A DNA stretch of 23,091 nt, from the IMG/VR virus record IMGVR_UViG_3300044731_001182, positions 1-23,091 of that record. One strand, 5' to 3'. This stretch comes from a virus. The translations under genes and the position numbers were made by a program. Shown here in pieces: positions 529 through 16,908 of this stretch. The notes under the pieces are model-generated. The model worked only from the letters and a program-made list of their open reading frames with translations, had not been told where the DNA came from and did no database searches. Each line of letters opens with the position of its first letter. The first letter of the stretch is position 1.

Positions 529-2511
529 TTAACAATAGGTTATTGGATATTCAACACGTCCATCTGTTCTAATTTCTACATATCCAGAAGCATCTCCAAG
601 TATTTGTATATGCCACCATCTGTTAAGTCCATCAAAAGGAATAGTTCCTTCAGGATTTATATATGCATATTTATTAAGACCAACAGTTTTAATATATAAT
701 GTAGTAGTTAATTCATAAGTACAAGTATCTGGTGAATTAGTTGCTTTACTTTCAGTAGATATGAACATAGGTGCAAGACAACATTCATTAAGTTTTATAG
801 GATCTGGTAAAGGAGTAATCTCTGAATCTATTTCTATATATTGTGAAATATATGGATTAGTTCTACTTACACAAATAGTTTCAGTTCCAGCTTTATTAAA
901 TAAGAATGTGTAATACTCATTAGAAAAACAAGCTTCATCTACATACACGTAAACTATACCATTGTCACTATCCTCTAATTGTTCTTCAGTTACAGTAACT
1001 TCATAAACATAACAATCGCAAAATATACTAGTAGTAGTAGTTGTAGTTGGTGCTATGGTAGTTGTTGTACTTGTTGTGGTTACAGGTAATGTTGTTGTTG
1101 TTGTAGTTGTTACAGCACATTCACCATTAACTAAACAAAGAGTTTCTAAATTAACAACTTGACTCTGTACATCAGTTACTATAATATTATTTTTTGTATA
1201 TGTTAATTCAATCGTAGGAATTACACTTGATTTTAAACAATATGAATAAGTTCCTGCAGTGTCGTAATGCATAACAATATCTTCATTCTCACAAGTTATT
1301 TGTTTTCCATTTGTCCCTTCTACATTAACATTTCCATTTAACGTAGTATTTCCTGTAGCATCATCAATATCAGCTTGACTAATAATTATATCTACACAAC
1401 TACAAGGTATTGTAGTGGTTGTTGTAGTTGTTAATGCACAAGCTTCACCATATTGAAAGCCTCCAGTTCCACATAAATATACAGGAGGTGGATAATTTAA
1501 CATACAGAATGTAAGTAATTCACCTGAACTAGTTTCAACTGTTTGAACATTTCCTTCACAATCTGTATATTGAATTAATGCATAATCTTGATCTGGACAA
1601 TTTGTACTAACATCAATTGATATTTCTATACAAGATAATTCTGCAGTGGTGGTAGTGGTAGTAGTTGGACATTGGTCATCAATACAATTTGCACCAATAT
1701 TAATAGTTACAAACTCACTATCAGCAAGTCCACAACATCCACAAACTTTTATAGTTTCGTAAGCATCTATAAGAAGTCCACTAATTAATGTACCAGTGCA
1801 ATCTTCATAACTTATAGAATGTGAAACAGAATCACTGTTAGAGAATGTAAGACATTCACAAGGAATTGCTGTAGTTGTAGTGGTGGTTGTAGAACTAGTT
1901 GAACTAGTGGTAGAAGATGATGTAGTGGTAGTTGTTAAAGGAGCACAAGGACCGTTTGGTGTAACAATCACTGTACCTGGAACAGTTAGAGGACTATCTG
2001 TTATAACGCAAATATTTGTATCTCCTGGCATCAATACTATAGCTTCTTGTTCTTGTGTAGTACAATCAGTAACAATTATAGCTACAGGATCATCTCCTGT
2101 GTTACTTAATGAGAAGTTTTCACAAGGACGTACTGTAGTGGATGTACTAGTAGTAGTTGCAGAACAACATTCACCTAATGTATTGTATATATTAATTATA
2201 TCACCATTAATGTCTATCACTTGATTAGTGATGTTAGTAACTTGGTTAGTTAGATAATTTATCTGTGTTATCAAAGTGCAAATAATCTCATCTATCTTTT
2301 GTAACACTACATTAAGTGTATCACATGGTTCAGCCACTATACATGGTAATTCAGGACCATCATAGACAATAGTACTAGATATAGTTAAATGAGTGCTACA
2401 TGGATTGTTGTTGTTACAACTACTATTGGTAATTGTAGAACTACACCCACAAGGATCATTTATAACTACGTCTGTACAGCAAGGATTAACTGGTAAAAAA
2501 GGATATGCCAT
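529..2511 (-). CDS. Mosaic Cys-rich tail fibre with poly-threonine linkers
   Basis: A 660-residue protein. Residues 1-117 are a Cys-rich head with a probable coiled coil (about 63-112) shared with the partial fibre to its left. Then come five Cys-bounded modules separated by Thr/Ser linkers: about 130-190, 218-282, 294-360, 370-467 and 498-579. The linkers lie at 119-128, 193-216, 283-293, 361-369 and 468-497. Most modules open with C or CxC after the linker, and several carry an internal YxDC-G type motif; they look like small beta-sandwich units. The C-terminal domain (580-660) has a WW pair and no linker. I count about 43 cysteines, which is unusual for a phage protein. The role is inferred: a receptor-binding or side fibre. 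The start is 12 bases past the collar gene stop, so the two are probably in one operon. The modules resemble no enzyme that I recognise. Confidence 0.8.
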   Translation of the reverse strand: MAYPFLPVNPCCTDVVINDPCGCSSTITNSSCNNNNPCSTHLTISSTIVYDGPELPCIVAEPCDTLNVVLQKIDEIICTLITQINYLTNQVTNITNQVIDINGDIINIYNTLGECCSATTTSTSTTVRPCENFSLSNTGDDPVAIIVTDCTTQEQEAIVLMPGDTNICVITDSPLTVPGTVIVTPNGPCAPLTTTTTSSSTTSSTSSTTTTTTTAIPCECLTFSNSDSVSHSISYEDCTGTLISGLLIDAYETIKVCGCCGLADSEFVTINIGANCIDDQCPTTTTTTTAELSCIEISIDVSTNCPDQDYALIQYTDCEGNVQTVETSSGELLTFCMLNYPPPVYLCGTGGFQYGEACALTTTTTTTIPCSCVDIIISQADIDDATGNTTLNGNVNVEGTNGKQITCENEDIVMHYDTAGTYSYCLKSSVIPTIELTYTKNNIIVTDVQSQVVNLETLCLVNGECAVTTTTTTTLPVTTTSTTTTIAPTTTTTTSIFCDCYVYEVTVTEEQLEDSDNGIVYVYVDEACFSNEYYTFLFNKAGTETICVSRTNPYISQYIEIDSEITPLPDPIKLNECCLAPMFISTESKATNSPDTCTYELTTTLYIKTVGLNKYAYINPEGTIPFDGLNRWWHIQILGDASGYVEIRTDGRVEYPITYC

Positions 2512-2523
2512 TTTGATAAGTTA

Positions 2524-3621
2524 TTAAGGTAAGTAAATAATGTAATAAGCAGCATTCACTGGTTGTATATTTGTGTGAGGAAGTCCACCTCCATTATTTT
2601 GACAAGTTACATCAACATTTACATCAATTGTAATTCCTGTTAAAGCAGGATCTGTAGTTCTAGTTGTTGGTACAGACTGTCTACCACCATTACCATCTCC
2701 AGAAGAATTAGTTACTCCTTGAAAGGTGTGTGAATGTCCAGGATCTGTAACATCTGTTGAAACAACAGTTACTAAATTATGGTTGTGATCAGGCATTTCT
2801 TGAAGACCAAGAGTAACTTGATTTGTTCCTGCTACACCACCTAGTGAATAATTAGGATTTCCAGAAACTGCTGGATCTACAGCAGGATTCATAGTTGGTC
2901 CAGGAACACCATTAATAGCACCAACAATAGTTCTTCCTCTTAAGTCAGGAGTTCCATTGTTTCCATTACATAAATAAATTCTATTCCAATCTCCAGTACC
3001 TGCTCCTGTAGAATTAAAGTTTGTTAAAGGACCATAATAAGCTACAACACCATATGGAACCATTCTTGAACTATATAATGATCCACTAGAAGTACCATCT
3101 ATATAAGCTTGTATATAAGTATCAATGTCATCAATACTAACATATGTATTAGGAAGATTATTAACAAGAAGATCAAAATCTGTTTTTAATGTACATAATG
3201 TATTAATTACAGCTTGTACAATAGCATGTGTATCTGAAGAACTTGTAACTCCTGTTAAACAATTTGCTGGTAAAGTGTAATTAGCATTTAATATAGTAAG
3301 TTCTGCTACAATAGCATCTACTTGTTCTTGAAGATCACAAGCAGCTTCTATAAGAGCTTTTGATATATCTACAATAGAAAGATCTCCACAAGTAGGAAGA
3401 TATTGTTGTACAAGATTACATATCACTGTGGTACCAAGATCAATTTTCACTCCTGTACCATCTAATGTAGATGTAAGAAACGTAATTAGTGCTTGTTCTA
3501 CAAAAGATAGAGAATCACCAGTTTGAATTCCTAAGACAGGAACATCAATTCCTGTATATCTAACACATCTGTCAGAGACAATCTCTGTACATCCGTTATA
3601 ACAATTTGAGCAATTGGACAT
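2524..3621 (-). CDS. Tail collar (short tail fibre) domain protein
   Basis: A 365-residue protein. The N-terminus is Cys-rich, with an RYTGIDVP...GIQTGDSL motif (21-38) that distantly resembles the heads of the two Thr-rich fibres. The middle (90-180) is helical. The C-terminal half is a phage tail-collar domain: MVPYGVVAYYG (187-197), GDWNRIYLCNG followed by TPDLRGR (210-230), MPDHNHNL (276-283), GHSHTF (295-300) and a closing P-NIQP--AAYYIIYL (348-364). In T4 gp12-type fibres, HxH motifs of this kind bind metal at the trimer axis; here HNH and HSH are candidates. By family knowledge it is a virion-tip or baseplate-attached fibre. It lies between the protease gene and the 660-residue fibre, with an AAAATAAAATAAT leader before its ATG. 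Confidence 0.85.
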   Translation of the reverse strand: MSNCSNCYNGCTEIVSDRCVRYTGIDVPVLGIQTGDSLSFVEQALITFLTSTLDGTGVKIDLGTTVICNLVQQYLPTCGDLSIVDISKALIEAACDLQEQVDAIVAELTILNANYTLPANCLTGVTSSSDTHAIVQAVINTLCTLKTDFDLLVNNLPNTYVSIDDIDTYIQAYIDGTSSGSLYSSRMVPYGVVAYYGPLTNFNSTGAGTGDWNRIYLCNGNNGTPDLRGRTIVGAINGVPGPTMNPAVDPAVSGNPNYSLGGVAGTNQVTLGLQEMPDHNHNLVTVVSTDVTDPGHSHTFQGVTNSSGDGNGGRQSVPTTRTTDPALTGITIDVNVDVTCQNNGGGLPHTNIQPVNAAYYIIYLP

Positions 3622-3653
3622 ATTATTTTATTTTAAAGATTTGATTTATTATT

Positions 3654-4922
3654 TTAACAAGGGTTATCTAATGATCCAGTTAATCCTACTTGCCAATATT
3701 CTTTTGTTAAACAAGTTAATGTTTTATTTGAGTTTCCTCCAACTGTTGTTTTATATTCAATAGATGTAAGATCTACAACAGTTAATGGTTCTGTATTATC
3801 CCACCATTCAATTCCTAATTGAGCTGCAACTTGATCTATTCTACATGCATATCCATATATTGTATTTCCATTTGCATCTTCACCACCAGCAAAATTTAAT
3901 CCTATTACTTTTATAGTTCCACCTATATCTGCTAATAATAAAGATCCTGAATCTCCAGGTCTAACTGGACTAAAACATTGAGGAACTTGAGCAGTTGGTG
4001 TAGCTGGATCAGGTTTAACAAACACAATACAATTAGTAAATGTACATAATGTATCAACACCTTGTAATTTAAAATTAACTAATGTATTTGCACCAACTTG
4101 ATAAATAGTTAATGGACACAAAGACCCACCCTTAGGACCTGTTGTTCTTCCTGAACTGTATAATTGTGGATTTGTAGAATACAAATTATTAATTTCTAAT
4201 GTTGTAGCAAAAGGAGGATTTTGTGTTAACGATAAACCAACTTGATCCCAAGATGAATCTACATCAACTACGTCTTCACTTAATGAAAATATTGCAGCAT
4301 CCACTTGATTTACTCCTGTACCAAATTGTACAATCGGTACATATCTTAAACTTTGTCCAATTACATCAACTGAGTCAGGTACGTTTGGTTCAGTATTTTG
4401 ATAAATAACATTAACAGGAGTGTATTCATTCTTTAATAAACCACTTTGATTTCTCTGTGATGTGTAAAATGCATCTTGTATTGTTACGTGATTATTTGTA
4501 AGACCTACAACAGCTCCACTTTGAGTGTGTTTAACTAAACTACCTATTGTTCCTCTTGATGGATATAGATTAGATGTTGTTATAGATAATGCCCCTTTAA
4601 TAGGTCTTGTATAAGTTCTATTATCAATAGAGCTTGCACCATTATCTTCACCACATCCAACGTTACAAACAAGTGAACTAACTGCATGTATTTGAACAAT
4701 ATCAGTTTTAATTATATCTTCACCTATTTGAATTTCAGAAGGAATTATTTCTTCTGGAGATAAATCAGCAATATTCTTTTTTTCTTTTAATTGATAAATT
4801 ATAGCTGAATCTCCTGTAGCTTCCCCATTTGAAATCTTAGGACCATAACCAATAGATATAGCATCAGGATGTAAATTCCTTAACTCATCTATCTTATTTA
4901 ATATTTCATTTGTTAATTGCAT
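3654..4922 (-). CDS. Trypsin/chymotrypsin-fold serine protease, virion-associated candidate
   Basis: A 422-residue protein. The catalytic triad can be read directly: His145 in LTNNHV (141-146), Asp208 in QVDAAIF (206-212) and Ser325 in RPGDSGSLLL (321-330), in the order and spacing of the S1 fold. Residues 15-80 carry a domain seen in front of many bacterial NAL1-like or trypsin-like proteases: GYGPKISNG, TGDSAIIYQL, then LSPEEIIPSEI and a TDIVQI strand. It may act as a propeptide or inhibitor. No signal peptide or membrane segment is visible. The gene sits inside the tail-fibre cassette, 31 bases from the collar gene and 12 bases past the 806-residue fibre gene. That suggests a virion or assembly role: trimming Thr/Cys-rich fibre proteins, or cutting a host surface protein. 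A head maturation protease is an alternative, since no other protease is visible here. Fold and catalysis are well supported; the substrate is unknown. Confidence 0.85.
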   Translation of the reverse strand: MQLTNEILNKIDELRNLHPDAISIGYGPKISNGEATGDSAIIYQLKEKKNIADLSPEEIIPSEIQIGEDIIKTDIVQIHAVSSLVCNVGCGEDNGASSIDNRTYTRPIKGALSITTSNLYPSRGTIGSLVKHTQSGAVVGLTNNHVTIQDAFYTSQRNQSGLLKNEYTPVNVIYQNTEPNVPDSVDVIGQSLRYVPIVQFGTGVNQVDAAIFSLSEDVVDVDSSWDQVGLSLTQNPPFATTLEINNLYSTNPQLYSSGRTTGPKGGSLCPLTIYQVGANTLVNFKLQGVDTLCTFTNCIVFVKPDPATPTAQVPQCFSPVRPGDSGSLLLADIGGTIKVIGLNFAGGEDANGNTIYGYACRIDQVAAQLGIEWWDNTEPLTVVDLTSIEYKTTVGGNSNKTLTCLTKEYWQVGLTGSLDNPC

Positions 4923-4933
4923 ATTGTTTTTTA

Positions 4934-7354
4934 TTATGGAGTTACTCCTTCAAAATATGTAAACACTGTATTCACACCTGCTATTGTTGTAGTTGTTGTT
5001 GTTGTAGGAGGAAAAAGTGTAGTGGTTGATGTAGTTACTACAGGATCATCTGTACAACCTAACCATATTGGTCCACCATTTCCACAATTCGTACCTGATA
5101 TTGTTACTTGAGTATAATCAGATGGAGCAGTTATAACAAATTCTCCACCACCACCACCAAAAAATGTTCCATCAACTCCATATAATTCATTTCCAACAAT
5201 ATCTATATAACAACTTACATTTGCTGTAATAGTAGGTGTACCTCCATTTGTTGTAAATCTAAAATCATCATTTCCATCTACTACTGCAAGTCTAAATGGT
5301 ATATTATTAACTGGAGAAGGAAATGTCAATGTATAATCAAATGCTGGAGTATCTAATGAACAACTTCCTGTATTTCCAATAGTAAATACAGTAGGAGTAT
5401 TACCAACAGAAAGTCCGCTACACGAAAAAATATCATTAGCATATGCTGCAGGTCTAGTACCTTGATAAATAACACTACTAGCTTGAACAGTCATTCCTAA
5501 ATAAGTAAAGTTAACTGGACCAATATATGGACCACTTGCACTAGATCTTAAACCTGGTAATGATGTAGGTGTACAATCAGGAGCATATACTTCAAAGTTT
5601 ACATTTGAACAACCTGTTGATGCCCAAAAAGTTTGTGTGTCAGAATATCCTAAATTACTTTCTAATAAAGTAAGACCATAGTTTGAGTTTTGTTCTACTT
5701 CATATAAATCAGAAGTTTCTGGATTAACTAAATAAACTATTCCGTTCCAAGCAAATAAATCAAAAGCTTTTCTTCCAGTGTAACCAATGGTAAAATCAAC
5801 TGTATCTTGTACACGAATTGCACCTATACTTGGTAACCATGGAATTGAAAAACTAGGATTAGGTAATCCTGCATATTGTTTAATAAAGTTACCAACATTA
5901 TTAGTAGAAGATACAAAATTATTTCTAGTGCTAATTATGACATTTCCTGAATTTGTATAAACAATGCCAGTAATTTCTTCATTTACACCAAAAGTATTAG
6001 TGACACCTACACTACGAGAAGCTACTGAATTACCAAGTGAAATTGTAACAGAAGGACTAGTTATGTCCCAATATCCAATATTAGCTAAACCACCACTAGT
6101 TGTAGTATTTCCTAATAATATAGTAGTGTCATTTATTGCAGCAATTGTATTTGGTTGATTTTGACTAGAACCAAAACTAATAACATTAATATCTCTAACA
6201 AAAGAAAGACTTAATGTTTCTTGCATTATGTCCCACTCTTTAATTGTATTTGCTCCATCACCAATCCACAATTTATTATTTGTAGAAGCCTGCATTGTAA
6301 TTTCTGTAGGTGTAGCAAAATCATTTGGTACAGATATAGTAACAGTTGTGTTTGAATCAATATCGTATACATCTATTGAACCAACTACATCTATATCTCT
6401 AGACCATACACAAGGTGATGCACTTGGAAAAAGTAATGTGGTACTAGTAGTGGTTGTAGATGAAGTGCTACTAGTAGACGTTGTACTTGTTGAACTTGTA
6501 CTAGTTGTTGAAGTGCTACTAGTTGACGTACTGCTAGAACTAGTGGTAGTTGTTGTAGGACAAGGTCCTATTGAAGAATCAACTACAAAAATCTGGTCTG
6601 CTAAAACTTCCCAAGTACCAATAGGGTAACTACCACTTCCTCCTGAAGAAATATATGAAAATACATTACCAATTGTTGCATTATATAATTCAGAGACAAC
6701 CCATTGATTTACATAATCCCCTGATGTAGAGAACCATATATAAACAGGTTCATCAAAACCTACCCATTGAGTTGTACAATCTGGCAGAAGAAGTTTATAA
6801 TATGGTTTTCCATTTATTAATCCTACTTCAGGTTCAACAGTACAAGAATATAGATCACCTGGAGTTTCTCCTCCCATGTAGAAACACATAGAAGCTATAG
6901 TAGTGGTAGTTGTCGTAGTGGTTGAACTAGTTGAAGTGGTTGTACTGGTGCTAGTTGAGGTGCTACTAGAACTAGTAGTGGTTGTAGTAGGTTGAATAGT
7001 AGTACTAGTAGTTGTTGTAGGATTTGGTACAATTGTAATGTCACAAGGTTCTTCTAAACAACGTTCTGGTTCATTACATTTACTAACACATCCTGATGTA
7101 AGACGAATCACTCTACTAGCAATCATTTGTACAGAGTAGGTATGCACATAATTAGGATTGTAATATTTGTACATAAGAATTCTTCTATATCCAATTAATT
7201 GAAGTATGTCATTAGAAGGCACAGATTTATTCAACATATATGAAATATTGTTGTATAAGTTGTTGCCAAGTTCTGCCAACTTGCAATCTATTTTCTTAAT
7301 TAAAGAAGGAATGTTTGCACATTCTGGACAATTAGTTAGTCTTGGTGATAACAT
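4934..7354 (-). CDS. Thr/Ser-linker fibre protein with probable beta-propeller
   Basis: An 806-residue protein. The N-terminal domain (1-112) is helical with paired cysteines (NCPEC, KIDCKL, then later C-x3-C and C-x4-C spacings) and probably anchors it to the virion. Thr/Ser linkers lie at about 113-153, 267-307 and 772-795. The first linker-bounded domain (154-266) has four cysteines. The large middle part (about 315-580) repeats short beta-strand patterns such as LWIGDGANTIKEWDI and GGLANIGYWDI, as in beta-propeller blades. The part that follows (590-770) is beta-rich and ends in a GGGGG turn and a CG-GGP-WLGC segment. It is probably a long adsorption fibre or tail-tip protein; the propeller call is inferred. 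It follows the 31-residue zinc protein by 11 bases and precedes the protease by 11 bases, so it belongs to the same operon. Confidence 0.75.
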   Translation of the reverse strand: MLSPRLTNCPECANIPSLIKKIDCKLAELGNNLYNNISYMLNKSVPSNDILQLIGYRRILMYKYYNPNYVHTYSVQMIASRVIRLTSGCVSKCNEPERCLEEPCDITIVPNPTTTTSTTIQPTTTTTSSSSTSTSTSTTTSTSSTTTTTTTTIASMCFYMGGETPGDLYSCTVEPEVGLINGKPYYKLLLPDCTTQWVGFDEPVYIWFSTSGDYVNQWVVSELYNATIGNVFSYISSGGSGSYPIGTWEVLADQIFVVDSSIGPCPTTTTTSSSSTSTSSTSTTSTSSTSTTSTSSTSSTTTTSTTLLFPSASPCVWSRDIDVVGSIDVYDIDSNTTVTISVPNDFATPTEITMQASTNNKLWIGDGANTIKEWDIMQETLSLSFVRDINVISFGSSQNQPNTIAAINDTTILLGNTTTSGGLANIGYWDITSPSVTISLGNSVASRSVGVTNTFGVNEEITGIVYTNSGNVIISTRNNFVSSTNNVGNFIKQYAGLPNPSFSIPWLPSIGAIRVQDTVDFTIGYTGRKAFDLFAWNGIVYLVNPETSDLYEVEQNSNYGLTLLESNLGYSDTQTFWASTGCSNVNFEVYAPDCTPTSLPGLRSSASGPYIGPVNFTYLGMTVQASSVIYQGTRPAAYANDIFSCSGLSVGNTPTVFTIGNTGSCSLDTPAFDYTLTFPSPVNNIPFRLAVVDGNDDFRFTTNGGTPTITANVSCYIDIVGNELYGVDGTFFGGGGGEFVITAPSDYTQVTISGTNCGNGGPIWLGCTDDPVVTTSTTTLFPPTTTTTTTIAGVNTVFTYFEGVTP

Positions 7355-7365
7355 AATCAGGTTTT

Positions 7366-7461
7366 TTATTTTTCAACTTTAGATGCACAGTGTCCACATA
7401 ACCCATTGGTTAATTGACATCCACATCCCACTCTAGCTCCGCATGAAGTACATTGTGCCAT
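7366..7461 (-). CDS. 31-residue Cys-rich zinc-knuckle protein
   Basis: A very short gene. It reads ATG at 7459-7461, 31 codons, TAA at 7366-7368. Six of 31 residues are cysteine: C4, C7, C13, C15, C22 and C25, giving CxxC, CxC and CxxC clusters plus one His (H24). This is the pattern of a small zinc-binding fold. It fits exactly between the stop of the 806-residue fibre's upstream leader and the 187-residue gene, with 2 bases before it and 11 after it. That packing, together with the clustered cysteines, argues that it is real despite its size. The function is unknown; a structural or assembly cofactor for the neighbouring Cys-rich fibre is possible. I associate similar tiny Cys proteins with tail cassettes of Bacteroidota and aquatic phages. 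Confidence 0.7.
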   Translation of the reverse strand: MAQCTSCGARVGCGCQLTNGLCGHCASKVEK

Positions 7462-7463
7462 AA

Positions 7464-8027
7464 TTAATAAAAGTTTATTAGGTAGTTGTTACCAGAACAA
7501 CCACAGTTGGATTTTAAAAAGTTGTTTAACATATTATCTGCTTGAGCATATAATGTGTTTGATTCATATTCTGCACAGTTATTAGCTGCTGAAATAGCTC
7601 CTTGAATAAAGAAGTTGATTGTATTTAATTGTACACTAGATTGTGTTTTAAGTGCTCTATCACATTCCATCATATTTAATTGAAGAAATGCATTATCAAA
7701 CTTTTCTTGAAGTTTATCAACACGTAATATTGTCTTCTCTACATAGTTTGCATATGCAGGAGCAACAGAATATTTAATTCTATATATTCCATCAGGAAGA
7801 GCTTGATTGCAACCAGGATCTGTTATTCCTAAATTAGATGATGTAAATACATTGATTTCATTAGGAACAAAAGGTAATATTTTGGTTCCAAATCCAGGAA
7901 TGTCAATCTCAATAGATGGTGCAGAAACCACTGGAGGATTGGTAGGATATACAGAAGCATCTGCAACACCAAGTGTAAGTACACTATAAGTAGGAACTAC
8001 TAATATATCTAATTGTAAGTTTGCCAT
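7464..8027 (-). CDS. Conserved phage tail-region protein, unknown function
   Basis: A 187-residue protein. The N-terminal half (1-95) is beta-rich and ends with a GIYRIKYSV strand. The C-terminal half is helical, with the pattern MMECDRALKTQ (118-128), an AANNC-EYES segment and NNFLKSNCGC near the end, so three spaced cysteine sites close the protein. There is no signal peptide or transmembrane helix. It resembles a structural adaptor with a beta head and a helical C-terminus, but I do not recognise the family with certainty. It is the first gene after the stem-loop at 8045-8082 and lies 2 bases from the 31-residue zinc protein, so it leads the fibre operon. It could be a tail-fibre hinge or an assembly chaperone. 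Confidence 0.65.
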   Translation of the reverse strand: MANLQLDILVVPTYSVLTLGVADASVYPTNPPVVSAPSIEIDIPGFGTKILPFVPNEINVFTSSNLGITDPGCNQALPDGIYRIKYSVAPAYANYVEKTILRVDKLQEKFDNAFLQLNMMECDRALKTQSSVQLNTINFFIQGAISAANNCAEYESNTLYAQADNMLNNFLKSNCGCSGNNYLINFY

Positions 8028-8044
8028 GTTGTTTTTAAATAAAT

Positions 8045-8082
8045 ATGCCAGAGGATGTGAGTTATCCTCTATCCCCTGGCAT
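8045..8082 (-). promoter_or_regulatory. Two-part stem-loop in the gap before the fibre cassette
   Basis: ATGCCAG at 8045-8051 pairs with CTGGCAT at 8076-8082. Inside, AGGAT pairs with ATCCT around a 7-base loop. On the minus strand the outer stem is followed by TATTTATTT, a weak U-tract. It lies between the 390-residue virion protein gene and the fibre cassette. It may be a leaky terminator that lowers fibre transcription relative to the abundant protein, or a processing site. No promoter-like site is seen in this gap. Confidence 0.55.
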
Positions 8083-8115
8083 AGGTTATTATTAATTTAC
8101 TCTCTTCTTTTATTC

Positions 8116-9288
8116 TTAAGGAATAAGAGTAGAAGTAGTAGTTGTTGTAGATACAGGAGCACTAGAAGTTGTAGTGGTTGTAGTAATACAAGCATTGTTA
8201 TCAACTACAGTTCCTAAAGCAGCTTCTAAAATTGTTTCAAAAGTAGAAGTTAAGTTACTACCACCTTGAGGTACAGCAAGAATCACTGTAGAATCTTCCA
8301 TGATATAATCACCCCATTGGTACTCAGATTTGTTATACTCGTTGAATTTAATATAGAAAGTGTTATAAGTAGCACCATCAGATACCCAAGACTCAAAGTT
8401 CTCGTTGTAACCATTCATTCTATATAAATGTTTCAAGTAACCAGCTTGGTAACTGTAGAAGTTTTTCTCTAATTGAGCAATTTCTGCAGATGTACCAGTA
8501 GCATAAGAAGCACGTTGTCTAATAATAGGATCAGCAACTAAATTACAAGCATCTGCTACAATAAAGTCAGCAGTTGTAGCTGGACCAGAATAAACAAAAG
8601 TTCTAAAAGACATTCTATCATATTCAAAAGGGAACGCTGCGATATCACAAGGTTGACCATATTTAGTTAATGGTTTTCCTGTAATACGTAATGTAGTTCC
8701 ACCTATATTTTCAAATGTATAGAATGTAGAGAAAGAAATGTTGTCAGGGTTGTTTCCTGGAGCTTTCAAGTTTAATTGATAGATCAAGTCATTGATGATA
8801 GTGTTAGCACTTACATCATCACATGGATTGTCATCACAATTACAACATGGAGCTTGGATAGTTACTGAACGAGTGAAACCATTGAAATACAATGTATCAA
8901 TATAAGAAGAGTGAGCACGTAAAGTTAACGTGATAACTTCTCCACATTGTACAGTGAAATTAGTTACATCAGTAATTTGGTTTGCCGCAGTTGGACATCC
9001 TGATACTTTGTACCATTCTGTTACATTTTGACCTGTACCAGCATTGTTTTTACCTGAAATCTTGTCAGATCTTTTTGATCCTTGTAAATAAGTGTTTGTT
9101 CTACCTTGAGCTACGTAAAAGTAAGGAGCAGAAGCAATTGGATTTGTACCAGCAGCAGTAACATATGCATAGTTACTACCAAAGATACCCACAATACCTT
9201 CATCTAGGTCTTGTGTTGAGCCAGAGCTAGGGACAGCAGTTTGCCCTACTGGAACCACGAATAACGTGGTTAATGAAAAATCAGCCAT
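8116..9288 (-). CDS. Abundant virion protein candidate (tail sheath or tube?) with Thr-rich tail
   Basis: A 390-residue protein. Residues 1-365 are a compact mixed alpha/beta domain without Thr linkers. A cysteine cluster, CCxCxxxxC, lies at 148-156. The last 25 residues switch abruptly to poly-threonine with a short Ser-Ala-Pro-Val-Ser break, and nothing follows. The codons look less A/T-biased than those of the fibre genes and similar to the capsid gene, which suggests high expression. The position after the neck candidate and before the fibre cassette fits a major tail or second major virion protein. I do not recognise the family, so tail tube, sheath or decoration protein all remain possible. 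The leader before the ATG is an AAAATAAATAAAA tract. A stem-loop lies 34 bases downstream of its stop. Confidence 0.6.
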   Translation of the reverse strand: MADFSLTTLFVVPVGQTAVPSSGSTQDLDEGIVGIFGSNYAYVTAAGTNPIASAPYFYVAQGRTNTYLQGSKRSDKISGKNNAGTGQNVTEWYKVSGCPTAANQITDVTNFTVQCGEVITLTLRAHSSYIDTLYFNGFTRSVTIQAPCCNCDDNPCDDVSANTIINDLIYQLNLKAPGNNPDNISFSTFYTFENIGGTTLRITGKPLTKYGQPCDIAAFPFEYDRMSFRTFVYSGPATTADFIVADACNLVADPIIRQRASYATGTSAEIAQLEKNFYSYQAGYLKHLYRMNGYNENFESWVSDGATYNTFYIKFNEYNKSEYQWGDYIMEDSTVILAVPQGGSNLTSTFETILEAALGTVVDNNACITTTTTTSSAPVSTTTTTSTLIP

Positions 9289-9316
9289 TTTTATTTATTT
9301 TAAATGTTAATAAAGT

Positions 9317-10048
9317 TTATTCGTTTGTTTGTATTCTGAATTGAGCACTCTGAGCTGCAGAAGCATTTTCAGTATACATTGCTAGATTTTGTACTGTAAG
9401 ATCTAACAATTCATCTTCTAAATATAATTCAAGTTCACAATCTTGATCAAATGATGGACTACCATCTAACATTATATATCCTGTCTTATTTATATATTGA
9501 GGATATCTCATGTACATTATGTAAACTTTTGTTGGTGTGAATGTACCATCTGTAAAATAACTTATCTCATCTGATGATAAAGAGTTGAATGTTTCTTGGT
9601 ATTCAAAACTTGGTTTGTAATGATCGTTATTCATAATGAACTGAAGATCACCATGTTTTGCAAGATCTCGATTAATCCAAATCTTTCTATTCTTACATCT
9701 TCCTTTGTCTGCTAAAACATATGAATCTATATAGAACATATATTGTGGCTCAAGATTGTGTACATACGTACACCATTGATTTATTTCAGGATTCTTTAAT
9801 ACAAGATCTAGAGGTTGGTGATTATAATTCATTATAAGACTTTGTAAGTCTTCATAACGTTTCTTAAACGAATCCATCCCTAATCCACTAGTAACACTAA
9901 GACCATCAACTTTTTGTTTTATCAACTTGATCTGAGCCTCATTCAAAGCTAAGATTTTGTCTTCTAATTGAATCTGTTGGTGCTCATTAGTTGATAGCTT
10001 ATTTAGTTTCTGATCGATCTTATATAATAAACTATCTACTGGTATCAT
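9317..10048 (-). CDS. Neck/head-tail connector candidate
   Basis: A 243-residue protein. Residues 5-50 are a strong coiled-coil heptad stretch. The middle (90-150) is mixed, and the C-terminal part has PTKVYIMYMRYP (172-183), SPSFDQDCELEL and a DELLDLTVQNLAMYTEN helix (213-228). The last pattern (acidic-C-L followed by a helix with E-x2-DL) is common in phage neck or adaptor proteins that dock on the portal. It has no cysteine cluster or Thr linker, unlike the genes to its left. It lies 28 bases before the 390-residue virion gene and just past the hairpin at 10065-10095. The connector role is inferred from position and that C-terminal pattern. Confidence 0.5.
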   Translation of the reverse strand: MIPVDSLLYKIDQKLNKLSTNEHQQIQLEDKILALNEAQIKLIKQKVDGLSVTSGLGMDSFKKRYEDLQSLIMNYNHQPLDLVLKNPEINQWCTYVHNLEPQYMFYIDSYVLADKGRCKNRKIWINRDLAKHGDLQFIMNNDHYKPSFEYQETFNSLSSDEISYFTDGTFTPTKVYIMYMRYPQYINKTGYIMLDGSPSFDQDCELELYLEDELLDLTVQNLAMYTENASAAQSAQFRIQTNE

Positions 10049-10064
10049 ATTCTTTTATATTTAT

Positions 10065-10095
10065 AAAACTAGCCTCTTAAATAGAAGCTAGTTTT
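10065..10095 (-). terminator. Hairpin over the stop codon of the 350-residue gene
   Basis: A 9-base perfect stem: AAAACTAGC (10065-10073) pairs with GCTAGTTTT (10087-10095), with a 13-base loop. On the minus strand it spans the last codons and TAA of the 350-residue gene and is followed by TTTTATAAATAT. It could be a weak intrinsic terminator or a translation-coupling element. The stem is A/T-rich, so strength is uncertain. Confidence 0.5.
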
Positions 10096-11129
10096 TTAGT
10101 TTTTAATTTGCCTTCTAATACTAATAACTCATCTTGGTTATCATCATCAGCAAGGAATTTAATTAAATCTTCTTCATCTTTAGCTATTTCAAACTCTCCT
10201 TCATAAACCTTACCGTTAGGTTTGATTCTGTAGATAGAATGTGCAACAGCTTGTTTTACTAAATCTTTAATATGGAGTAAACTCTCTTTCATGTCAGCAA
10301 ATCTATTGAACACTTCAACTGGATTTAATCCTGAATATTTACCATTCTTGAATTCAGTTTGTTTCAATACATTATCTACTAAGTTATACACCACTTCTTC
10401 TTTTGAATCTTCTGATACTGGAAGACCTAATAGTCTTGCAACTTTACGTTTTTTCTCAGGAGTCATAGAATCAAACTTAACAATTGCTTTGTTGATCAAT
10501 TGTTTTTTCTTGAAGATCACTGCATTCTCAATCTCATCATCAACAACATAAAACTGTGTTTCTGCTGGATATTCTCCTCTTTCCCATGCTTGGTGAGAAG
10601 ATGCAATAGTTGGATGTACTCTCAACCATGAAAAGGCTATTTCTTGGAAAGCATTTGATAAATCAAAATAGTTATCACCATCCATTAATTTAACTGCTTG
10701 TACGTGAGTTTGATCATCTGGAGATAATGACAATCCATAGTTCCAAAATTTAGAACGTGGTCCTAAGTCAATATCACCTATTTCACTCTCAAGTTTTGCT
10801 CTAAGAGCAGTTACTCTTTCAACTTCAAGTTCTCTTTCAGTATCATCTTTGATACGTCTAATGTAAGCAGCATCTGGATCAAGTCCTGTTCTATACTTAC
10901 CATCTAATTCCTTATAAGGATATTTGAATACACCTGTTCCAGGGATTCTTGTCATTCCTTTTTGTGCTAACCCACTATCCATTGTTTGTAACTGAGAACT
11001 ATTATATTCTCTCTTAATAGTAGAAATTTTGCCTGTTTTACCCATAATGTAGTTATTTAATAATATTTGGTTTAATTTGTAGAGTGTTCCCATTGAAGGG
11101 AATGCGACTGGGAAATCCCAATCCATCAC
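10077..11129 (-). CDS. Helical virion protein with SAP-like motif, unknown function
   Basis: A 350-residue protein read from GTG at 11129, with ATG one codon later at 11126; the true start could be either, or the internal ATG at residue 29. Residues 85-120 are a charged helix. A helix-extended-helix (SAP-like) pattern lies at about 220-256 (SMTPEKKRKVARLLGLPVS, then a second helix), a fold that often binds nucleic acid or partner proteins. The C-terminus repeats acidic and Lys-rich strands. There is no signal peptide and no Thr linker. The gene lies between the capsid gene and the neck candidate, so a head-completion or internal head role is possible. I do not recognise the family. It is preceded by the three-stem-loop gap and an AAAAAATAAACAAGA leader. 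Confidence 0.6.
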   Translation of the reverse strand: MMDWDFPVAFPSMGTLYKLNQILLNNYIMGKTGKISTIKREYNSSQLQTMDSGLAQKGMTRIPGTGVFKYPYKELDGKYRTGLDPDAAYIRRIKDDTERELEVERVTALRAKLESEIGDIDLGPRSKFWNYGLSLSPDDQTHVQAVKLMDGDNYFDLSNAFQEIAFSWLRVHPTIASSHQAWERGEYPAETQFYVVDDEIENAVIFKKKQLINKAIVKFDSMTPEKKRKVARLLGLPVSEDSKEEVVYNLVDNVLKQTEFKNGKYSGLNPVEVFNRFADMKESLLHIKDLVKQAVAHSIYRIKPNGKVYEGEFEIAKDEEDLIKFLADDDNQDELLVLEGKLKTKKLASI

Positions 11130-11146
11130 TCTTGTTTATTTTTTAA

Positions 11147-11302
11147 AGTGCTCAGTTATAGCAGAATGTATAATAGGGCACTAGGTTTGAGAATCATCCC
11201 CTCGTAGGAGGGAGAGGAGTTGAGGGGATTCTTCTCGAATAAAAGAGTTACTCTGGTACGCCTACAACTAGTAAAAGTGATTATTCTTCTTGGCGTAGTA
11301 AC
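11147..11302 (-). ncRNA. Three consecutive stem-loops after the capsid gene
   Basis: The 187-base gap between the capsid stop and the next start is nearly filled by three hairpins (minus-strand order). First, 11247-11302: GTTACT and ACGCC pair with GGCGT and AGTAAC around a 29-base loop, with a 5-base bulge. Second, 11189-11236: 13 of 15 pairs, interrupted by a tandem GA/GA mismatch, with a pyrimidine-rich 18-base loop containing CUCCCUCC. Third, 11147-11182: AGTGC/GCACT outside TTATA/TATAA. There is no long U-run after any of them. It could be a 3' stabiliser of the capsid message, a processing element or an untranslated RNA. Pairing was read by eye. Confidence 0.55.
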
Positions 11303-11316
11303 TACTATTATTTTTA

Positions 11317-12879
11317 TTAGAATTGTGGCATTTCCTCAATCAACACAGTTCTAGATAAGTCTTCAATAAATACATCACATCTGTCTTTCATCCAGATTTC
11401 GTATCCTGGGAATTTATTAGCAGAACTCATACCTTGAGATTTAGCAAAACCTAAGTGGTGACGAGTACCATCAATATAACCCCATGTCATAGAAGGAGCA
11501 CCTTTCATTCTCACTTCTCTAATATTGTTTACCATTGAACCATCAGACATTGGAGAAACATCAAACACCATAAATACTGGAGTAGATTTTTTGTTTTGTC
11601 CAAACTCTAAGTTAGTTTGAGGTAAATCTAATTCTTTTAAGTGGATCAATTCAACTCTACCAGTCTCACGAGTTACCATTGCATCAAATGCAAAGTTGTA
11701 AGTGATATGTTGTCCTTCACCTTGCATATATCTGTTTCCAGAATCTGCCATGAAAGTTAATCCAGAGTTTAATGCATCATTTTTCAAAGCTTGTTGGAAC
11801 ACGTCAAAACCAGCCTCGTTAGTGTACATTTTAACACTTCTATCTTTTACATCCACACGTCTGTAGAATAAATCTCCAAATACTGAACGGATTAAGTTAG
11901 CAGAGAACTCACCTCTGTTGTATTGTACTAAGTTACCATTGTTTCTCATTCTGTGGTAAACACCAGCAGATGTACGTTTCAATTCTTGTTTAGAACCGTT
12001 AGTTTTAACTGTACCAGGCTTAGCCCAAATCATACGTTTAACTTTCAATTCTAACATTGATTTACGCATCCAGAATTCGATGAACGGTTCCCATTTAACA
12101 TCATTACGAGTTAAAGGTAATTGGTTACGTCTTTGTGGAGCATATACTAAAATGTCTAATGGTTTACCAGAAGCATCTCTCATCATTTTGTCATCAGCCC
12201 ATTCAGTGATTTTGTGCTCATATCCATATGCAGAACCTAAAGATTCAAACATAGTGATTTGCTCACCTAATCTAGGAAGACCTAATAAGTCTTGATCAAA
12301 CTCACCAATAGCAGCGTCAACTAATTCTAGCTCAACACCATATTGTAAAAAGATAGGATTTACATAATCAACAACTGGGTTGTCAGTTACTAATGTGAAT
12401 GTGTATAAGTAACCCATGTTCCAAGGCACAGGATCTTTGATTACGTAGAATCTAGGACCATATTGACGTGTACCTACAGAAACAATAGCATTTTTAGAGA
12501 ATTCATTAGTATCTAATACTAAAGTGAATTCTTGACCATCGATACCTGTTTTACCAGACGTAATTAAATCTTGTGTGGTAGAAGGAATGTCAATAATTTT
12601 TGGGAACTTGTAAGGAACAGCTACTTGCCATTTCCAAGCATCACTATTATTATCAATGTAATAAGGTGTGCTTTTGTTGATCATGTCTAAGAAGTCATTA
12701 CTGTACAACGAGCTCTGAGTATATAAAGAGATAATCTTTTTATCATAATCTGCAGGCTCAGTCGAGTGAAAACTCTCTAAGTGATTTGAGTCTGTAAGTT
12801 TCCCTACTGCACGTTTGTCCATAGACGCAACACGAGCATAAGTAAAACCTGTTAACCCAGGGATAGTTTGAATTGCCAT
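11317..12879 (-). CDS. Major capsid protein candidate
   Basis: A 520-residue protein of the size expected for a major capsid protein. It directly follows the acidic scaffold candidate and portal in the usual head-gene order. Its codons are less A/T-biased than those of the fibre genes, as expected for the most abundant protein. It lacks signal peptide, membrane segments, Cys clusters and low complexity. Mixed strands with several GxxY and RRxD patterns in the 200-380 region fit an HK97-like shell protein, but I do not see a diagnostic signature, so this call rests mainly on context and length. The leader is GAATAAACA directly before the ATG, and the gap to the scaffold stop is 38 bases without a promoter-like site, so the two are probably cotranscribed. 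Confidence 0.75.
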   Translation of the reverse strand: MAIQTIPGLTGFTYARVASMDKRAVGKLTDSNHLESFHSTEPADYDKKIISLYTQSSLYSNDFLDMINKSTPYYIDNNSDAWKWQVAVPYKFPKIIDIPSTTQDLITSGKTGIDGQEFTLVLDTNEFSKNAIVSVGTRQYGPRFYVIKDPVPWNMGYLYTFTLVTDNPVVDYVNPIFLQYGVELELVDAAIGEFDQDLLGLPRLGEQITMFESLGSAYGYEHKITEWADDKMMRDASGKPLDILVYAPQRRNQLPLTRNDVKWEPFIEFWMRKSMLELKVKRMIWAKPGTVKTNGSKQELKRTSAGVYHRMRNNGNLVQYNRGEFSANLIRSVFGDLFYRRVDVKDRSVKMYTNEAGFDVFQQALKNDALNSGLTFMADSGNRYMQGEGQHITYNFAFDAMVTRETGRVELIHLKELDLPQTNLEFGQNKKSTPVFMVFDVSPMSDGSMVNNIREVRMKGAPSMTWGYIDGTRHHLGFAKSQGMSSANKFPGYEIWMKDRCDVFIEDLSRTVLIEEMPQF

Positions 12880-12917
12880 TGTTTATTCGTTTTTTTGTTA
12901 ATTATTAATTTGTTTTG

Positions 12918-14180
12918 TTATAAGAACCATGAATTAGGATTAGATTTTGAACCAGTAGCTCCAGTTGATTTAACTTTAGTTACTTGTCTTGCAACTTCTC
13001 CAAATAACTCGTTAGACTTTTTAGTCACACCTGTTTTTTGTATAGTTGATAATGTAGGATCTTTTTCTAACATCTTCATGATAAGCCCTAACTTAACTTT
13101 CATTACATGATTCTCTGGTCTTTTCATATCCAGAATAGCACGATCAAAGTCTGTAAGAGTTTCTCCTGTAGGAGTTTTCCACTTATCAACTAATAAGAAG
13201 TCTTGTAGTTCGCCTGCTAATGTTGGATTGATAGGAATACCATCAAACTCTTTTGATTTTATTTTATCATTAAGAATGTCTTGAACGTTCTTAATATATT
13301 GATTTCTAATTTGTGCTTTTTGTTGTAATTCTTGTTCAGCCTTAACTTCCATTTGTTGCAACTTAACTGCTTCTTTTTTAACTAACACCTTGTGATGTTT
13401 AGTAGCTACGCTTTCAAGATCACCATAATTTTTAAATCTTTCAATCTCTGTATCAATATCTTCATTATCAAATCCTTGATCTAATAATGCTTGTCTCACT
13501 ACTCTTGCTTGATTATCTTCATCACTAAGATCCATTTCAGCAAAACTAACTACTTGATTGTAAGTTCCAAAATACTCTTTAGGATTAACTCCTTTTACAA
13601 ATATGGCTTCAAATGCTTGTTGATAATCTTCTCCAAATTGTCCTATGAAATTATTAACTGTTTCAATTGCACCTTTCTTCTTTTCTTCATTGAATCGTTC
13701 TAAGAACTCTTCTGCAGTGGAGATTGGTTCTTGATCTTCATCTTCATCAGAAGTGAACACTCCTAATTTATAAAGATCGTTTGCAAGAGCAGTGAATTGT
13801 GTACCTTGTGGTTCATCCTCATCTCCATCAGCAGCAGCTTCTGTAGCTTTTGCAGGTTTTGCTGGAGCAGGTGTATCATCTTCATCATCATCTTCAGAAT
13901 CACTCAAGAAATCAGAAATCATTGATTGTCCTTCTTGTTTTTCTTCATCTGTTTTACCATCAACGCTTTTAGGAGGAACAATGTCCTTACCTTTTGGTAC
14001 TGCTGGTGCATCTGGTGCAGCAGGAGCATCTGCGTTTTTAATAATAGGTTGAACATCATCTGGATTAGAAGATGCTGTCTCAGGTTCGAATAATCCTTGA
14101 AGCAATTCTTGGTTACCCATACCCATTTCCATAGTATCTTGAATACTAAAGTTACCCATAGTTTCTAAATTATCAGCCAT
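12918..14180 (-). CDS. Capsid scaffold candidate
   Basis: A 420-residue acidic protein. Residues 45-150 are low-complexity with Ala/Pro and Asp/Glu runs (for example SDSEDDDEDD at 93-102). Residues 150-250 are acidic helices. A long coiled coil with Lys/Gln/Glu lies at about 262-300, then a compact C-terminal region ending in SNPNSWFL. The acidic disordered start, coiled coil and short conserved end resemble phage scaffolding proteins that drive shell assembly and are later lost. The position between portal and capsid genes agrees. No protease domain is visible in it. A promoter-like site (14212-14242) lies just upstream, so scaffold and capsid may have their own transcript. The leader is ACATAAATACAACTACAT before the ATG. 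Confidence 0.7.
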   Translation of the reverse strand: MADNLETMGNFSIQDTMEMGMGNQELLQGLFEPETASSNPDDVQPIIKNADAPAAPDAPAVPKGKDIVPPKSVDGKTDEEKQEGQSMISDFLSDSEDDDEDDTPAPAKPAKATEAAADGDEDEPQGTQFTALANDLYKLGVFTSDEDEDQEPISTAEEFLERFNEEKKKGAIETVNNFIGQFGEDYQQAFEAIFVKGVNPKEYFGTYNQVVSFAEMDLSDEDNQARVVRQALLDQGFDNEDIDTEIERFKNYGDLESVATKHHKVLVKKEAVKLQQMEVKAEQELQQKAQIRNQYIKNVQDILNDKIKSKEFDGIPINPTLAGELQDFLLVDKWKTPTGETLTDFDRAILDMKRPENHVMKVKLGLIMKMLEKDPTLSTIQKTGVTKKSNELFGEVARQVTKVKSTGATGSKSNPNSWFL

Positions 14181-14211
14181 ATGTAGTTGTATTTATGTTT
14201 GGTTTATTATG

Positions 14212-14242
14212 TAAAAGTATAATAAGAGTTTTTAATATCAAA
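14212..14242 (-). promoter_or_regulatory. Bacteroidota-type promoter-like site before scaffold-capsid genes
   Basis: On the minus strand TTTG (14239-14242) is followed, after 19 bases, by TACTTTTA (14212-14219). The Bacteroidota sigma consensus is TTTG, about 19-21 bases, then TAnnTTTG, so only the last base differs. The start would fall near 14205, giving a leader of about 25 bases. It would give the scaffold and capsid genes extra expression. Confidence 0.5.
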
Positions 14243-14298
14243 GGAATATACATCAATGTGATCCAATTTTCCAGATAATATAGCATTAATATTATTTA

Positions 14299-14314
14299 CC
14301 CCTCCGAAGAGGGG
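14299..14314 (-). terminator. UUCG-tetraloop hairpin after the portal gene
   Basis: A 6-base GC-rich stem: CCCCTC pairs with GAGGGG around a TTCG loop on the minus strand, a C(UUCG)G tetraloop of unusual stability. It begins 8 bases past the portal stop. The minus-strand tail is TAAATAAT rather than a U-run, so it could slow polymerase or protect the 3' end. In the plus direction it is followed by CAACTTTTTT and would look more like an intrinsic terminator. Confidence 0.7.
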
Positions 14315-14322
14315 CAACTTTT

Positions 14323-16908
14323 TTAACCTTTTTTGTTATTTCTACCCTTTGCGTTCTCTTTAGCAACAGCAAGATCGTTTGCCATATTCTCTCTAGCTAC
14401 AGCAATTTTCTCCATTTCTATTTGCTTCTTATCGCTAGATTCTTTTGATTTAACTTGTATCTCTTGCATTTTCAATTGATATGCTTGAGCAGCTTTAGAT
14501 TGATCATTTGATAATTTACTAACTTCTAAAGCATCAGCCACTCCTGAATTATCAACATCTGCTGCTGCATTTTCATTTCTACCTAATGCATTAATAAGAG
14601 CAACTTCTTTTTTATTGATTCTATCAAGTTCGTTTTGGTAATCCTCATGAGCTTGATCAGCTTGTTTCATTTGAATAGCTTGTTGCATTTGAGCTTGTGC
14701 TTGCTGAGCTTGTTGTTCAACTTTTTGTTGTTCAAGTTGTTGAGCTTGTTGTTGTTGAGCAAGTTGTTGATCTCTAAGGTCTTTGAATGTTTTCTTCATT
14801 TCTCTCATAGACTTAGTGCTGTAAAGCTCAATAACATCGTATAATGAACCACCATTCTGCATCAAAGGTTGTGCCAATTGACGAAGCTCATTAAACATTT
14901 GTGTATCTTCAGGTCTATTAGTTAAGAACACTTTCAAGTCACGGAACTTAAGGTCTGACCCATTCACTTGTACAAAAGCAGCTTCTCCTTCATTTGTAAT
15001 GTATGAAAGTGTAGATTGTGGCTTAGATGATTCTACATAAAGAGCAGCATCTATAATAGCTTGGTACAATTGTCCCATTACATATTCATGTGCCACAAAC
15101 AGAGGCTCTGTCTGAGAATAACTTTGTTGCATAGCAGTGTTAGTACCTGTAGCACTTTCTGATGCTGATACAGATCCCATACGTTGTCTAGACATACCTA
15201 CAAGTTCCCAACACTCAGCTTTAAGTTGTTGTGCTAATGTATATCTAGATTGTATCTCCTGCGTACGTGTAAGATCAAGAGCTGTAAACTGATTGAATGA
15301 ACTAGGACTCTTCATGTTTTCTGGAGAGTCATCAATAAATACCACTCCTCTGTTACGTGCTTCCATTTCCCATATGTCAAGAGCATCTTGTGCATCTCCA
15401 TCTTTAGGAATAGGAATATGTCTTAATGACATAAGTTGAACCTTACCCACTTCTTTCTCAAGAAGTTTGTACAATTGGTTCATACATACGTTATATAGCA
15501 CTTGGAAAGGTTTCATAAGATCAACTAAGCTTTTAGCTTCTGTGTTCTTCACCTCATATGTTGTTCCTATAATAGGACAATAATTTAAAAGCTTGAATGG
15601 TTTAATGTGATAGATGTCTGGTCCAATTTTAGTTCCTTGATACCATTCATTAATCCATCCCCATTCTAATGATTGTTGTGTAGGTATTGTGCCTGATTTA
15701 TAAGTTTCATCAACAAGCATAGATTGTTCATTACCCATCTCATCTATATAAATAAGCTTACCTATCTTTCTTTTAGAAATCCAATAAGAACGCACAACAA
15801 CATATTTATAACCAAATGAACTAACGTTATTAGTAAGACCTAAGAAGTCTTTTAATCCATCATTGTTCTCTTTCATTTCTGATTCTATAATCATACGTGT
15901 CTGAAGAACAAGAGGATCAAATGTATCGTACATTACAGAATCTTGTCCAGGAATAGCATCTGGGTTACCAAGATTAGATTCTCTAACATTGATTAATCCA
16001 TAGTCTTGTAACGATGAACGTAAGTGATCGATTTCCTCTTTCGTAAGATCTGGTATGCTTTCAATGATCTCTGAAAGCTCCATAACTTGTACTGTACCAG
16101 CAGCATAGGCTCCCTGAGCTCTACCTGTGGGATCAGATATCCATTTTCTATCAGGAGTAGTAAGAAACCAGGTGTTCTTTGGGTTAGCCACTTCGATGTT
16201 GAAACCAAGTTTCGAGTTGTCTTCATATATGTGATAAAATTGTCTAGCAGAAATAAGCATGTCTCTGAATGCATCTTCTGATTTTTCTTTTAAATTGAAT
16301 TCAGCTTTTTGACAAGTAAGAATGTGGTTTGCCCATTTTTCAGCAACAGACGTGTAGCTATCTAACTGATCTTGAACTTGTTGCATTGTCATTTGTTCAA
16401 TTTCTTCTTCAGGAATTTCATTTCCTTCCATAGCAGCTTTTGCCATGATTTGTTGTCTAGCTTGACTCATTACATATTGTTGTAATGTATCTGTTTTAAA
16501 CTGTAACTCTTCTGATTGACTATCATCATCAAAAGCTTTCACTCTAAATGCATCAGGTCTTTTGCTGATTTCTCCTACTAATTCATTTACAGGAGTGGTG
16601 ATAATAGAATACATCTTTACATAAGCAGGAAGTTCTAAATCAGATGTTAACACATCTGTAAAGCTTCTCACCTCTGGTTCTTGATAGAAATCTTCCATAC
16701 GAAGAATGCCTTTCATAAGATCGTAATTCTTAACAAATGTATCTCTATTCTTTACATATTCAGCATATGCTTTGTTGGAGAAATAGTCCATTGTGTTTTT
16801 GATCCAACTCTCGTCTTGCTTTTCTTTCTCTGTCTTAAACTGATCAGGAAAGATGTTTAAGTATGCATACCTGATTGTTGCATCTTTTGTATATCTAATT
16901 ATTGCCAT
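14323..16908 (-). CDS. Portal protein
   Basis: An 861-residue protein. Length, position right after the large terminase and helical architecture fit a phage portal, the ring through which DNA enters the head. The N-terminal part (35-120) is helical, and residues 230-650 form the probable clip, stem and wing region. The C-terminal tail (about 701-861) is a long helical barrel with Gln-rich repeats (714-750). A canonical EF-hand-like calcium loop (D-x-D-x-S-G-x-x-D-x-x-E) lies at 784-795. There is no cysteine cluster and no signal peptide. The start is one base past the TerL stop, with an AAATGTTTAGATAAC leader, so translation is probably coupled. It is longer than many portals, mainly because of the C-terminal helices. 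The call is strong from context and moderate from motifs. Confidence 0.8.
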   Translation of the reverse strand: MAIIRYTKDATIRYAYLNIFPDQFKTEKEKQDESWIKNTMDYFSNKAYAEYVKNRDTFVKNYDLMKGILRMEDFYQEPEVRSFTDVLTSDLELPAYVKMYSIITTPVNELVGEISKRPDAFRVKAFDDDSQSEELQFKTDTLQQYVMSQARQQIMAKAAMEGNEIPEEEIEQMTMQQVQDQLDSYTSVAEKWANHILTCQKAEFNLKEKSEDAFRDMLISARQFYHIYEDNSKLGFNIEVANPKNTWFLTTPDRKWISDPTGRAQGAYAAGTVQVMELSEIIESIPDLTKEEIDHLRSSLQDYGLINVRESNLGNPDAIPGQDSVMYDTFDPLVLQTRMIIESEMKENNDGLKDFLGLTNNVSSFGYKYVVVRSYWISKRKIGKLIYIDEMGNEQSMLVDETYKSGTIPTQQSLEWGWINEWYQGTKIGPDIYHIKPFKLLNYCPIIGTTYEVKNTEAKSLVDLMKPFQVLYNVCMNQLYKLLEKEVGKVQLMSLRHIPIPKDGDAQDALDIWEMEARNRGVVFIDDSPENMKSPSSFNQFTALDLTRTQEIQSRYTLAQQLKAECWELVGMSRQRMGSVSASESATGTNTAMQQSYSQTEPLFVAHEYVMGQLYQAIIDAALYVESSKPQSTLSYITNEGEAAFVQVNGSDLKFRDLKVFLTNRPEDTQMFNELRQLAQPLMQNGGSLYDVIELYSTKSMREMKKTFKDLRDQQLAQQQQAQQLEQQKVEQQAQQAQAQMQQAIQMKQADQAHEDYQNELDRINKKEVALINALGRNENAAADVDNSGVADALEVSKLSNDQSKAAQAYQLKMQEIQVKSKESSDKKQIEMEKIAVARENMANDLAVAKENAKGRNNKKG
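14524..14559 (-). other. EF-hand-like calcium loop in the portal C-terminus
   Basis: Codons 784-795 of the portal read DVDNSGVADALE, matching the 12-residue EF-hand loop at positions 1, 3, 5, 6, 9 and 12. The hydrophobic at loop position 8 is Ala. It separates two helices. Confidence 0.5.

Follow-up and report, generated by a model that had tools for sequence, protein, structure and literature searches.

The window, i.e. the whole stretch of 23,091 nucleotides analysed here, is taken to be a segment of a crAss-like (Crassvirales-like) phage because its major capsid protein (11317..12879, minus strand) matches PF23898 with an E-value of 2.6e-28; the nearest named relative of this capsid protein is that of Leptolyngbya phage Lbo-JY46 (25.7%). 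The gene studied here lies at 3654..4922 on the minus strand, starts with ATG and encodes a protein of 422 aa. It is preceded by a gene for an 806-aa fibre-like protein with Thr-rich linkers (4934..7354, minus strand), and followed by one for a protein of the tail collar/fibre type (2524..3621, minus strand; PHROG tail matches and a weak match to Gp10_C). The same cassette contains a Thr-linker repeat protein (529..2511, minus strand). Another protein with Thr-rich linkers, a partial copy at the contig end (1-508), is related to the repeat protein (E 3.4e-13), and the serial arrangement of the two suggests a duplication of fibre modules.

An earlier note on this DNA placed the gene between a fibre and a collar gene, as we also find, and described the site as one where no protease is expected. 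The cassette is indeed of the fibre type, but the arrangement is not a one-off anomaly, since dozens of phage contigs share a protease gene paired with a fibre-like gene that carries a C-terminal tag, described below. The collar gene is not strictly linked to the protease: in L024 and L057 it is found elsewhere, with the protease preceded by a large gene all the same.

Fold, catalytic residues and relatives of the protease

The product of the gene almost certainly has a protease fold. The catalytic residues named in the earlier note are found on the minus strand as His145 (codon 4488..4490, in the motif TNNH), Asp208 (4299..4301, NQVD) and Ser325 (3948..3950, GDSGS), and all three are invariant in a 12-member alignment of the protease family. 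The conserved order His-Asp-Ser and the GDSG around the serine are those of the PA clan. The triad is complete in all 85 copies of the first set in which all three columns could be aligned, as well as in 39 of 39 further distinct proteins from a later scan, with identities down to about 30%; triad loss is confined to extra copies in a single tandem array (L068). Among close relatives, pairwise dN/dS values lie between 0.17 and 0.32, so the protease is under purifying selection.

An AlphaFold model, calculated from a 51-row family alignment, has a mean pLDDT of 91.5 and a pTM of 0.92. When the model was compared with the PDB by Foldseek, the top match was rice NAL1 (8hau, E 2.6e-17, 402 columns, i.e. 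the whole length), followed by chymotrypsin-like proteases of Streptomyces; the matches to streptogrisins and tryptase (E 1e-8 to 1e-4) are to proteins of the double beta-barrel fold, in agreement with the chymotrypsin fold that had been proposed. From this high-confidence model and the NAL1 alignment, the triad residues are likely to lie within bonding distance.

The similarity to NAL1 is also detectable by profile. The family profile finds rice NAL1 in the PDB with an E-value of 2.2e-5, and the N-domain, the catalytic His (TN-x-HV in NAL1) and the GDSGS motif are all aligned. A first, narrow family profile gave chance-level matches only, and a single-sequence phmmer search of the PDB with the window protease gave no match. 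The N-terminal NAL1_N-like domain covers approximately residues 1-96 (4635..4922, minus strand; the boundary is approximate) and is assigned from the match to the N-domain of NAL1 and from weak matches of relatives to the Pfam family NAL1_N (PF25608), found in 11 of the 51 family members (best E 0.0025). Structure and profile thus bear out the front domain that the earlier note had described. The Pfam model finds no match in the window protease, and its curated cut-off is not reached, hence we classify the protein as NAL1-like and not as a member of the Pfam family.

Scans of viral contigs gave more than 100 protease loci on contigs of up to 323 kb, with identities down to about 30%; 80 of the 238 relatives found in the last scan were kept. 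Some loci (L006, L012, L033) are situated outside an obvious capsid or tail cluster. Bacterial and archaeal genomes were scanned twice, with a pattern as seed that may miss distant relatives; no copy was found, and no cellular source of the protease was identified in the genomes scanned. Likewise, no close named relatives were found among the INPHARED phages, and one further search for named relatives gave chance-level matches only. A weak match (25.6%) was seen in one unannotated record of 484 kb. Two side observations can be mentioned: L006/L007 has two adjacent protease paralogues (8001-10569), the first of which has no tag before the second, and the protease frame of L021 (1160-2463) is broken by a frameshift, i.e. 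it is either a pseudogene or an assembly error.

Many lineages encode the protease as the N-terminal portion of a longer protein, of up to 1974 aa (L015-L020, L045, L050, L071, L075, L076, L081, L086, L087, L102 and others). In several of these fusions, Thr-rich or TPTP linkers precede further domains, and the C-terminal parts are often fibre-like. At another locus (L079) the protease lies near collagen-repeat and S74 tail-fibre genes. Fibre-type proteins accompany the protease either as fusion partners or as constantly paired neighbours. In the L068 array (1439-14598), six protease-fold genes lie in tandem, some active and some degenerate: one domain has His replaced by Tyr, and one copy has Asp replaced by Asn and Ser by Cys. 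Every tag-like C-terminus in this array precedes the next protease copy. A gene of the same contig at 15046 resembles a tail sheath by eye, with no family match behind it.

The C-terminal tag of the upstream protein

The upstream fibre-like protein carries at its C-terminus a conserved partner tag, GVNTVFTYFEGVTP (4937..4978, minus strand). Its pattern is T-[IVLM]-[FWY]-x-x-[FWI], and the residue after it is in most cases acidic or polar. A scoring matrix was trained repeatedly, each time omitting one group, and ranks 46 of the 59 distinct upstream tails higher than any of 569 other C-termini. At new loci, out of sample, the same holds for 23 of 28 tails as compared to the best of 326 control tails, and two of the five tails that fail belong to upstream genes that do not adjoin the protease. 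A looser pattern is present in 88 of 96 adjacent upstream proteins (eight are without the tag) versus 87 of 983 other tails; the 96 come from crAss-like and jumbo-size phage contigs and include many related variants, i.e. the counts are not independent. The tag lies at the end of a stretch, more than half of which is Thr, Ser or Pro in 56% of the cases as opposed to 3% of the controls.

The two sets of control tails reject a chance C-terminus, and shared ancestry of the upstream proteins is rejected as the 100 residues that precede the tag sort them into 24 groups. Selection appears to act at the protein level, because the codons of the tag vary synonymously and its residues conservatively, and for the same reason a DNA-level signal, such as a ribosome site, is not favoured.

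The 806-aa protein of the window corresponds to two separate genes in L009, L015, L018, L026, L029, L037 and L039. Where the upstream protein of relatives is split, the tag is absent from the gene of the N-terminal part, and the one adjoining the protease carries it; the exception is L025, in which neither gene is tagged. Compared with these split genes, the 806-aa protein is a natural fusion in which the conserved N-terminal domain is joined to the tagged part. Taken as a whole, we are highly confident that the tag is functionally tied to the protease.

Possible roles of the protease

The flexible tether ends in a strand-like peptide beside the protease gene, and we therefore read the tag as a docking peptide. 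We propose that the upstream fibre protein would recruit the protease via this extreme C-terminal, beta-strand-like peptide, which commonly ends a Thr/Ser/Pro-rich tether, and that the tag would dock the protease without being consumed. The protease, a NAL1-like serine protease of the PA fold that is predicted to be catalytically competent, would be a subunit of the tail or fibre appendage and would cut a host-surface protein during adsorption. We consider such a tag-recruited appendage protease the best explanation overall, and hold it tentatively, at a little short of an even chance. Its parts deserve different degrees of trust. Fusions and gene context indicate that the protease is probably carried by the virion, and the same evidence leaves a host-surface target evenly balanced. 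That the tag docks rather than is cleaved seems somewhat the better supposition. In an AlphaFold construct with tag and protease in cis, where the intergenic stop codons of L028 were read as Gln, the tag was undocked with a pLDDT of about 44. This prediction, which relied on one chain, a short forced linker and an alignment of little depth, is a weak test that speaks against docking; the eight untagged upstream proteins and the loci outside an obvious capsid or tail cluster also count against the proposal. NAL1 entries in the PDB contain 3, 6 or more chains, numbers that, by analogy, would fit trimeric fibres.

The alternative that comes closest is that the tag is a recognition sequence and the upstream fibre is cut in the tag or in the nearby linker at assembly; the earlier note had named processing of fibre proteins, or else digestion of a host surface protein, as what the protease could do. 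The genetic pairing of tag and protease would suit such a fibre-maturation enzyme, and chymotrypsin-fold enzymes generally bind their substrates as extended strands. However, tag-like peptides are also kept before the catalytically dead domains of L068, and 23 tags end one residue past the core, which would leave a cut hardly anything to remove; we prefer docking over cleavage for these two reasons. Outside the core, no obvious conserved cleavage site was found in the upstream tails. Fibre maturation is thus unlikely in our opinion.

It could also be argued that the protease fold is largely structural, i.e. a fibre tip or adaptor for which catalysis is secondary, as the tandem and dead copies of L068 and the fusions with long C-terminal parts might indicate; we find this improbable given that the triad is kept in all other copies across a wide divergence. 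Quite improbable, too, is an intracellular protease of host takeover that merely lies within a late operon. In plants, NAL1 acts inside the cell as a regulatory protease, which would favour this idea, but the fusion with fibre-like domains and the constant presence of a tagged fibre-like partner speak against it. Finally, a head-maturation protease, conceivable in as much as none was recognised among the ten window proteins scanned, can be rejected as highly improbable since the partner is a fibre-like gene in every context, and there is neither a match to a prohead-protease family nor a link to capsid genes. The earlier note had also seen no head protease here; we agree, and regard this as weak evidence because the words protease and cleave are absent throughout the PhiCrAss001 structure paper (PMC10172136).

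Comparison with known systems

It is useful to compare the tag-docked protease proposed above to the nearest known systems. Rice NARROW LEAF 1 (NAL1; PDB 8hau, 8pmg and 7y77) has the same overall architecture, an N-domain followed by a chymotrypsin-fold domain. The two proteins are only about 16% identical, the phage gene is paired with a tagged fibre-like protein, and the phage proteases, unlike NAL1, are often fused to long C-terminal parts. The secreted bacterial protease B of S. griseus (3sgb) shares the fold of the catalytic domain (E about 1e-7), but, in contrast to the phage protease, it has neither the N-domain nor a tag partner. A partial structural match of the protease model (E 1.6e-4) was seen to a gp5/VgrG OB-fold protein of Agrobacterium phage Atu_ph07 (BFVD A0A223W0P2), hinting at another virion-borne chymotrypsin-fold domain.

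Public protein data already contain the family, both in entries that lack annotation and in a PHROG that bears the label 'protease'. The closest public entry is an unannotated protein of Virus NIOZ-UU157 (A0A7S9XDX3), which belongs to the same family (47% identity, TM 0.96). PHROG_20754 matches the N-domain and the His/Asp half by profile (E 5.6e-13); it carries the label only, and we found no described partner tag. In the open-licence literature on crAss proteases, virion trypsin-like proteases, NAL1 and C-terminal tags, no matching tag-protease system was found. As an analogy only, one can think of the gp38-type fibre partners of T4-like phages, which are likewise encoded directly after the fibre gene and act at the C-terminal end of the fibre. 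In our case, on the other hand, a chymotrypsin-fold protease would take the place of such a partner, with a short C-terminal tag as the link.

A broader view is possible, if somewhat less likely than not: the tag may recruit NAL1-like proteases to diverse appendage proteins in crAss-like and in unrelated jumbo-size phages, i.e. a surface-digesting protease would be a widespread plug-in mounted on interchangeable fibres, and L068 would represent chained units of tagged protease folds. To our knowledge, the phage fibre enzymes described so far are mostly glycan-cutting. If a conserved serine protease is indeed recruited by the tag, some phages would routinely cut host surface proteins. The pairing of tag and protease amounts to a simple tag-partner rule, and in phages that lack annotation the tag is of use for locating protease partners and for recognising fibre genes.
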